A stretch of DNA of 64,000 bases from Cryphonectria parasitica EP155. Its lineage: Eukaryota; Ascomycota; Sordariomycetes; Diaporthales; Cryphonectriaceae. The notes below the pieces were generated by a model. The model was not told the DNA's origin, did no database searches, and was given only the letters and a program-made list of their open reading frames with translations. Positions 28,138 through 28,301 of the stretch are shown in pieces (the first letter of the stretch is position 1; every line of letters begins with the position of its first letter). The stretch is from NCBI RefSeq assembly GCF_011745365.1, contig NW_024468909.1, forward strand, positions 7,006,001 through 7,070,000, read 5' to 3'. The position numbers were made by a program, and so were the translations under genes.

Positions 28138-28144
28138 GGTCTTG

Positions 28145-28155
28145 TGGTCTAGTGG
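28145..28155 (+). promoter_or_regulatory. tRNA A box
   Basis: TGGTCTAGTGG matches the internal Pol III A box TRGYNNARNGG perfectly. Its last G is also the first base of the 62-nt insert, so the insertion leaves the box unbroken. Confidence 0.85.
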
Positions 28156-28216
28156 TAAGTGTTTTCACCAAATTATCCTTCACATACCACTCAACTCAAT
28201 CTAACATCAATCTCAG
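28155..28216 (+). other. GT-AG (spliceosomal-type) intron in the tRNA D loop
   Basis: This 62-nt insert begins GTAAGT and ends TCTCAG. It contains CTAAC (28201..28205), a match to the fungal CTRAC branch site, 11 nt before the acceptor AG. Size and signals match the mRNA introns of neighbouring genes. Removing it joins AGTG to GTATGA and restores the normal tRNA-Pro D loop. GGTA occurs at both edges (28154..28157 and 28216..28219), like a small target duplication. It cannot form the bulge-helix-bulge needed by tRNA endonuclease in any way I can see. It includes TTTT (28162..28165), a possible weak Pol III stop. Confidence 0.85.
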
Positions 28217-28235
28217 GTATGATTCTCGCTTAGGG

Positions 28236-28252
28236 TCCACCCTAATCATCAT
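28236..28252 (+). other. canonical tRNA intron after position 37
   Basis: Seventeen nucleotides lie between G37 and T38. The CCCTAA inside can pair with the anticodon-loop TTAGGG, the usual layout of nuclear tRNA introns cut by the Sen endonuclease. Confidence 0.9.
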
Positions 28253-28267
28253 TGCGAGAGGTCCCGC

Positions 28268-28276
28268 GTTCGATCC
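28268..28276 (+). promoter_or_regulatory. tRNA B box
   Basis: GTTCGATCC fits the B-box consensus in the T arm. It lies about 112 nt from the A box because both inserts separate them, roughly twice the usual distance in a small tRNA gene. Confidence 0.85.
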
Positions 28277-28293
28277 GCGGCAAGACCCAACTC

Positions 28294-28301
28294 TTTTTTT
28301 T
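28294..28301 (+). terminator. Pol III terminator, T8
   Basis: Eight T residues begin 6 nt after the tRNA 3' end, the expected Pol III stop. Confidence 0.85.

Follow-up and report, generated by a model that had tools for sequence, protein, structure and literature searches.

Among small structured RNAs, U3 and U6 are named in the available text of PMC5832005 as the only ones known to be often interrupted by introns. Fungal U6 genes (Schizosaccharomyces pombe and others) harbour a short GT-AG intron with a branch motif within a structured RNA made by RNA polymerase III (Pol III), the S. pombe intron being known to be spliced (PMC10484740), and fungal U3 snoRNA genes possess canonical splice sites within a small structured RNA gene (PMC5832005). 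Eukaryotic tRNA genes are regarded as limited to one intron in the available part of the tRNAscan-SE 2.0 description (PMC8450103), the canonical type residing in the anticodon loop at position 37/38. Ectopic tRNA introns outside 37/38, including D-loop and (in archaea) 53/54 positions and with several introns per gene, are described for Cyanidioschyzon merolae, nucleomorphs and archaea (PMC3978253, PMC4090602); those of C. merolae (11-69 bp) and archaea possess junctions of the bulge-helix-bulge (BHB) type, and those of the Guillardia nucleomorph span 3-24 nt. Among the matches listed in a literature search covering titles and abstract openings, with few subscription papers, none reported a spliceosomal intron in a nuclear tRNA gene.

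The window, i.e. the whole 64,000-nt stretch of DNA analysed, contains a tRNA-Pro(AGG) gene of 151 nt (28138-28288; Table 1), the exons of which sum to 72 nt. The original prediction had described a 62-nt insert with GTAAGT, CTAAC and TCTCAG in its D loop, and all of these features are present at the predicted positions. No tRNA was detected in the raw window by ARAGORN, nor by Rfam at gathering score, and the unspliced gene likewise yielded nothing with ARAGORN. Upon removal of the D-loop insert, ARAGORN recognized a tRNA-Pro(AGG) with a 17-nt intron, in agreement with the prediction that excision of both inserts leaves 72 nt forming a complete tRNA-Pro(AGG). An intron-like insert at the tRNA-restoring join was obtained in none of 100,000 shuffles of the window insert, by a rule set post hoc. 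As a point against function, the 5' splice site is located inside a predicted hairpin requiring 7.9 kcal/mol to open (4.1 kcal/mol in the second insert-bearing Pro gene, on contig C3). Positions 28183-28191, within the D-loop intron, hold a 9-nt stretch of the spliced D-loop sequence in inverted orientation, and in the predicted fold this copy is paired with the region of the 5' splice site; because 1.3 % of shuffles contain a copy of equal length and none is present in the other Pro intron, it was set aside as evidence. The Pro junction had no match in viral or bacterial/archaeal contig collections, as expected for a fungal gene.

Table 1 Features of the tRNA-Pro(AGG) locus (positions refer to the window)
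Feature	Position	Strand	Remark
tRNA-Pro(AGG) exon 1 (acceptor 5' strand, D arm 5' part to G18)	28138-28154	+	
A box TGGTCTAGTGG	28145-28155	+	11/11 of consensus, unspliced and spliced
Spliceosomal-type intron, D loop, G18/G19, 62 nt, GT-AG	28155-28216	+	
5' splice site GTAAGT of D-loop intron	28155-28160	+	
Branch-point motif CTAAC, starting 16 nt before D-loop intron end	28201-28205	+	
3' splice site AG (TCTCAG) of D-loop intron	28215-28216	+	
tRNA exon 2 (D arm 3' part, anticodon arm 5' side, anticodon AGG)	28217-28235	+	
Canonical anticodon-loop (37/38) tRNA intron, 17 nt	28236-28252	+	ARAGORN on D-spliced gene
tRNA exon 3 (anticodon arm 3' side, T arm, acceptor 3' strand, C73)	28253-28288	+	
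B box CGTTCGATCCG, T arm	28267-28277	+	By position and eye, 9/11 of consensus
8-T run, Pol III terminator candidate	28294-28301	+	

Such inserts are not confined to the window gene. The surveyed assembly, apparently that of the chestnut blight fungus Cryphonectria parasitica EP155 (Sordariomycetes, Diaporthales) in view of a 100 % match of a GH92 protein of the window, comprises 43.8 Mb on 17 contigs, and 80 tRNA or tRNA-like loci were assembled from a first tRNA search (61), similarity searches (6 and 6) and Pro genes (7), all 80 of which were inspected. The similarity searches employed 30 distinct tRNA genes of the genome as queries, and breaks of matches within genes yielded five short stretches, containing the three Lys genes and the Tyr gene described below and a Leu(CAG) locus. 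The tRNA counts are lower bounds, since scoring in the Rfam tRNA search covered 63 of 990 candidates and several families were never found. Families outside the survey are Phe, Trp, His, several Leu and Ser types, Val(AAC), Glu(TTC), Thr(TGT), Lys(TTT) and Arg(CCT), because tRNA sequences of other families, used as queries, gave no match in the genome. GT-AG inserts outside the anticodon loop were detected at six of the 80 loci, belonging to tRNA-Pro (two genes, at 18/19), tRNA-Lys (three genes, at 53/54) and tRNA-Tyr (one gene, at 16/17); no other kind of insert was noticed in the D or T loops of the inspected loci. A tRNA-Gly(GCC) gene (C5:2571422) was excluded from the six, its sole insert being in the anticodon loop and not of the GT-AG type. 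All six inserts are 58-63 nt long and carry a YTRAY motif starting 15-17 nt before the 3' end. ARAGORN detected none of the six genes in unspliced form and all six as complete cloverleafs after excision of the insert. Each additionally possesses a 37/38 anticodon-loop intron (Pro and Tyr by ARAGORN, Lys by eye), and insert-free copies were found in each family (two Pro(AGG), three Lys, one Tyr), so that the cell need not rely on the insert-bearing genes. An assembly error, envisaged along with the original prediction, can be regarded as very unlikely, for the same arrangement recurs at separate loci on the four contigs C1, C3, C4 and C5. Membership of the inserts in a repeat or introner family was likewise rejected, as each of the six introns matched only itself in the genome at E<=10 (by a search that skips very common words) and near-identical copies were absent at that threshold.

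The splice signals were compared with those of seven mRNA introns of the same genome, three of which are located in the window (introns 1 and 2 of the Fal1/eIF4A-III gene and the GH92 intron). For a phospholipase C gene in the window, the match to the protein was continuous and yielded no intron. The four introns from outside the window were chosen by a score favouring the consensus; of six gaps tried in DEAD-box genes, C2:2998a and C2:3694 did not convince and were discarded, and C2:2868 is represented by the candidate ranked second. In these seven mRNA introns, which measure 57-95 nt, CTAAC is found at -15 to -18 in all but one, where it is at -23. The signals of the window insert match the three mRNA introns of the window, as the original prediction had maintained for their spacing. 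With respect to a U2-type assignment, GT-AG ends at the exon-restoring join were found in all six tRNA inserts, and 5' splice site, branch motif, spacing and length are as in mRNA introns of the same genome. In 100,000 shuffles per insert, the intron rule (written post hoc) was satisfied zero to three times for each of the six, and the product over the six is not taken as a probability.

The genome contains four tRNA-Pro(AGG) genes (identified by exact-pattern and similarity search), two of which carry the D-loop insert. The comparison with the three others, proposed along with the original prediction, thus yielded one further gene with an insert at the same site (C3:1412439-1412585) and two without (C1:1022838 and C8:2504583), and all four contain an anticodon intron of 17 or 18 nt. 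The C3 insert is a 58-nt GT-AG element (GTTAGT...CTAACAATCATCTCAG) positioned identically to that of the window gene. In their exon sets (72 nt), the two insert-bearing genes are distinguished by a single base, the T-loop purine at index 56 (G in the window gene and A in the C3 gene, the sole one of the four with A), and index 46 is T in both of them versus C in both insert-free genes. Outside the signals, the two insert bodies align no better than shuffled sequences (a fraction of 0.339 of 2,000 as good), the splice signals being kept in both despite this divergence. A search allowing up to three mismatches yielded three further Pro genes, one Pro(CGG) and two Pro(TGG), all devoid of a D-loop insert; the two Pro(TGG) genes (C1:5514825 and C1:5516677) are 1.8 kb apart in inverted orientation. 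An odd tRNA-like gene at C3:2329367-2329457 has GTGCAAATCC in its T arm and an unclear anticodon, and was designated Pro(tgg) with a 17-nt intron by ARAGORN.

Three tRNA-Lys(CTT) genes (C5:619556, C1:5229784 and C4:4650729) contain inserts of 58-59 nt between position 53 and T54, with the signals GTATGT...CTAAC or TTAAC...CAG or TAG. ARAGORN names these genes Val(tac) because it leaves their anticodon intron in, the loop C-T-CTT-A being that of tRNA-Lys by eye. The anticodon intron is identical in four of the six Lys copies (two with and two without the T-loop insert) and differs by three added bases in a fifth, and all six genes share the flank CAATTCCCGTC, while no two of the three T-loop inserts align. 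Exon identity therefore proves less in this family, where gene conversion or repeated insertion at one site may have occurred and must be allowed for. The Lys genes at C5:619556 (with T-loop intron) and C9:2714613 (without) have the same anticodon intron, and their 3' flanks agree over 25 nt, as if the T-loop intron had recently been gained or lost cleanly. In the tRNA-Tyr gene (C1, near 3268311-3268460), the D loop is broken by 63 nt with the signals GTGAGT...CTAAT...TAG, and the spliced copy is folded as tRNA-Tyr by ARAGORN. The intron-bearing and the intron-free Tyr copy differ at seven of 75 compared positions; where the intron-free copy has an A-U pair in the T stem and a G-U pair in the D stem, the intron-bearing copy has G-C, through two and one of these differences, respectively.

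The inserts are placed at the edges of the internal Pol III promoter boxes, as judged by consensus strings for A and B boxes. The Pro A box scores 11/11 both before and after splicing; its last G coincides with the first base of the intron, so that the box is unbroken in the DNA. In the Lys genes, the A box scores 12/12 unspliced and the B box 10/11 unspliced versus 11/11 spliced, the AG of the intron substituting for G52-G53. The Tyr A box scores 11/12 unspliced versus 12/12 spliced. With introns in these positions, Pol III initiation could survive, and box-edge placement would explain the sites of insertion. Of the six genes, five (the window gene, all three Lys genes, the Tyr gene) are closely followed by a run of at least five T; no such run is present within the first 80 nt downstream of the Pro gene on C3.

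Redundancy of the tRNA families invites the explanation that the insert-bearing copies are dead, i.e. that mRNA-type introns or other DNA entered dispensable tRNA genes whose RNA is unexpressed or degraded, the intact copies supplying the pool. Intact copies do exist in each family, insertions in the D or T arm of eukaryotic tRNA genes are usually held to mark probable pseudogenes, according to the available text of PMC4090602, and the genome contains probable pseudogenes, namely a Leu(CAG) locus (C6:80783; C6:80640-80870) that lacks the D arm and proceeds straight from acceptor into anticodon arm, and a tRNA-Ile locus (C5:1254178; C5:1254168-1254288) with a changed T loop that was rejected by ARAGORN. 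However, none of the six insert-bearing genes shows damage to its exons or to any of the three splice signals, while the intron bodies diverge, the Pol III boxes are whole or carry one mismatch, and every insert is of the GT-AG type, as random insertions would not be. The compensatory T-stem change in the Tyr copy also argues against decay, since a decaying gene is not expected to keep its stems. The pseudogene alternative, already considered with the original prediction, is thus weakened by exon conservation, by signals kept in non-aligning introns and by the Tyr base-pair change, retains the existence of intact copies in its favour, and is on balance improbable.

Considerably less probable is that the inserts are genuine tRNA introns removed by the tRNA splicing endonuclease, as is thought for the ectopic introns of Cyanidioschyzon. 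Introns of comparable placement are on record, some of the C. merolae introns (11-69 bp) being situated in the D loop (PMC3978253) and introns at 53/54 being described in archaea (PMC4090602), which also agrees with the remark in the original prediction that oddly placed tRNA introns occur in archaea and some algae. Unlike the BHB-type junctions of those introns, a strict BHB (4-bp central helix, two 3-nt bulges) was not found at any of the six joins, at most two of four central pairs being formed in all sliding registers of a search for the strict form that was run without a positive control. Removal by the endonuclease would leave the GT-AG ends and the fixed spacing of the branch motif unexplained, and according to PMC3978253 the enzyme, with its four subunits, is considered to recognize its substrates by the D arm and acceptor stem. 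The length of 58-63 nt differs from that of the nucleomorph introns. All six genes also carry a canonical intron at 37/38, from which the D- and T-loop inserts differ in position, length and signals.

U6 provides a precedent. The U6 gene of the same genome is split in the ACAGAGA region by a 56-nt GT-AG intron (C4:3111668-3111723; L138 1484-1539) located between GATAC and AGAGAAG and displaying GTGAGT...CTAAC at -16...CAG. The U6 match was the sole one among 47 scored candidates; it starts inside the intron, as a result of which the 5' exon is misplaced in the Rfam match. A B-box-like sequence (9/11) resides inside the intron, and the B box of fission yeast U6 is likewise located in its intron. 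Repeated insertion of U6 introns in fungi is reportedly the subject of an earlier paper. Taking together the U6 intron found here, the transcription of U6 by Pol III and the splicing of its S. pombe counterpart, it is very likely that the spliceosome of this fungus already encounters an RNA made by Pol III. The occurrence of mRNA-type introns in fungal U6 genes, to which the original prediction had referred, hence applies to S. pombe (PMC10484740) and to the present genome alike. The tRNA genes differ from fungal U6 in that the host is a tRNA with a second intron of another class, the insert is located in the D or T loop, and six genes of three families are concerned; they differ from fungal U3 by the internal A/B-box promoter and tRNA-specific end processing. 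Least probable of all is transcription of these loci by Pol II rather than Pol III, the tRNA then being a passenger in short non-coding RNAs with introns. Although mRNA-type introns are normal in Pol II transcripts and no strong Pol III terminator is present within 80 nt of the Pro gene on C3, the A and B boxes are intact or nearly so, T runs closely follow the other five genes, and U6 exemplifies a Pol III gene with an intron in this fungus.

The spliceosomal-type reading of the insert is accordingly supported at the sequence level and widened from one gene to six genes, three families and three sites, with U6 in addition. Sequence anatomy, recurrence, signal conservation and exon integrity are matters of direct observation. 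The tRNAs concerned would, with high probability, need both the spliceosome and the tRNA splicing endonuclease, in at least six such genes with two intron classes each. For transcription, splicing and the order of processing, we infer the following course. Pol III would transcribe the window gene from its internal A and B boxes, whereupon the spliceosome would remove the 62-nt U2-type D-loop intron first, in the nucleus, and the endonuclease would then excise the 17-nt anticodon-loop intron. The spliceosome is placed first because only then would the tRNA core fold for RNase P, RNase Z, the exporter and the endonuclease.

A broader proposition is more tentative and has somewhat less than an even chance of being correct: the genes would form a class of nuclear tRNAs dependent on spliceosome and endonuclease, whose introns would stem from repeated, independent insertions at a small number of fixed sites (18/19, 16/17 and 53/54), where the Pol III A or B box is rebuilt by the GT or AG of the intron. 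Such a restriction to fixed sites may be due to reverse splicing into tRNA precursors, with only those insertions persisting that spare the promoter.

Such genes can escape tRNA gene finders in which eukaryotic introns are expected solely in the anticodon loop, as illustrated by ARAGORN, which missed all six. Since the intron-bearing Pro and Tyr copies are distinguishable from the intron-free ones at single bases, their products can be told apart. The genes represent a natural test of spliceosome access to uncapped Pol III RNAs. tRNA and mRNA introns are taught as separate worlds served by separate enzymes, and here they would be joined on one Pol III transcript. The presence of two intron classes in one tRNA gene implies a processing order, and tRNA output would depend on the spliceosome. 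If the reverse-splicing reading is true, the tRNA supply of the fungus would be directly sensitive to spliceosome activity.
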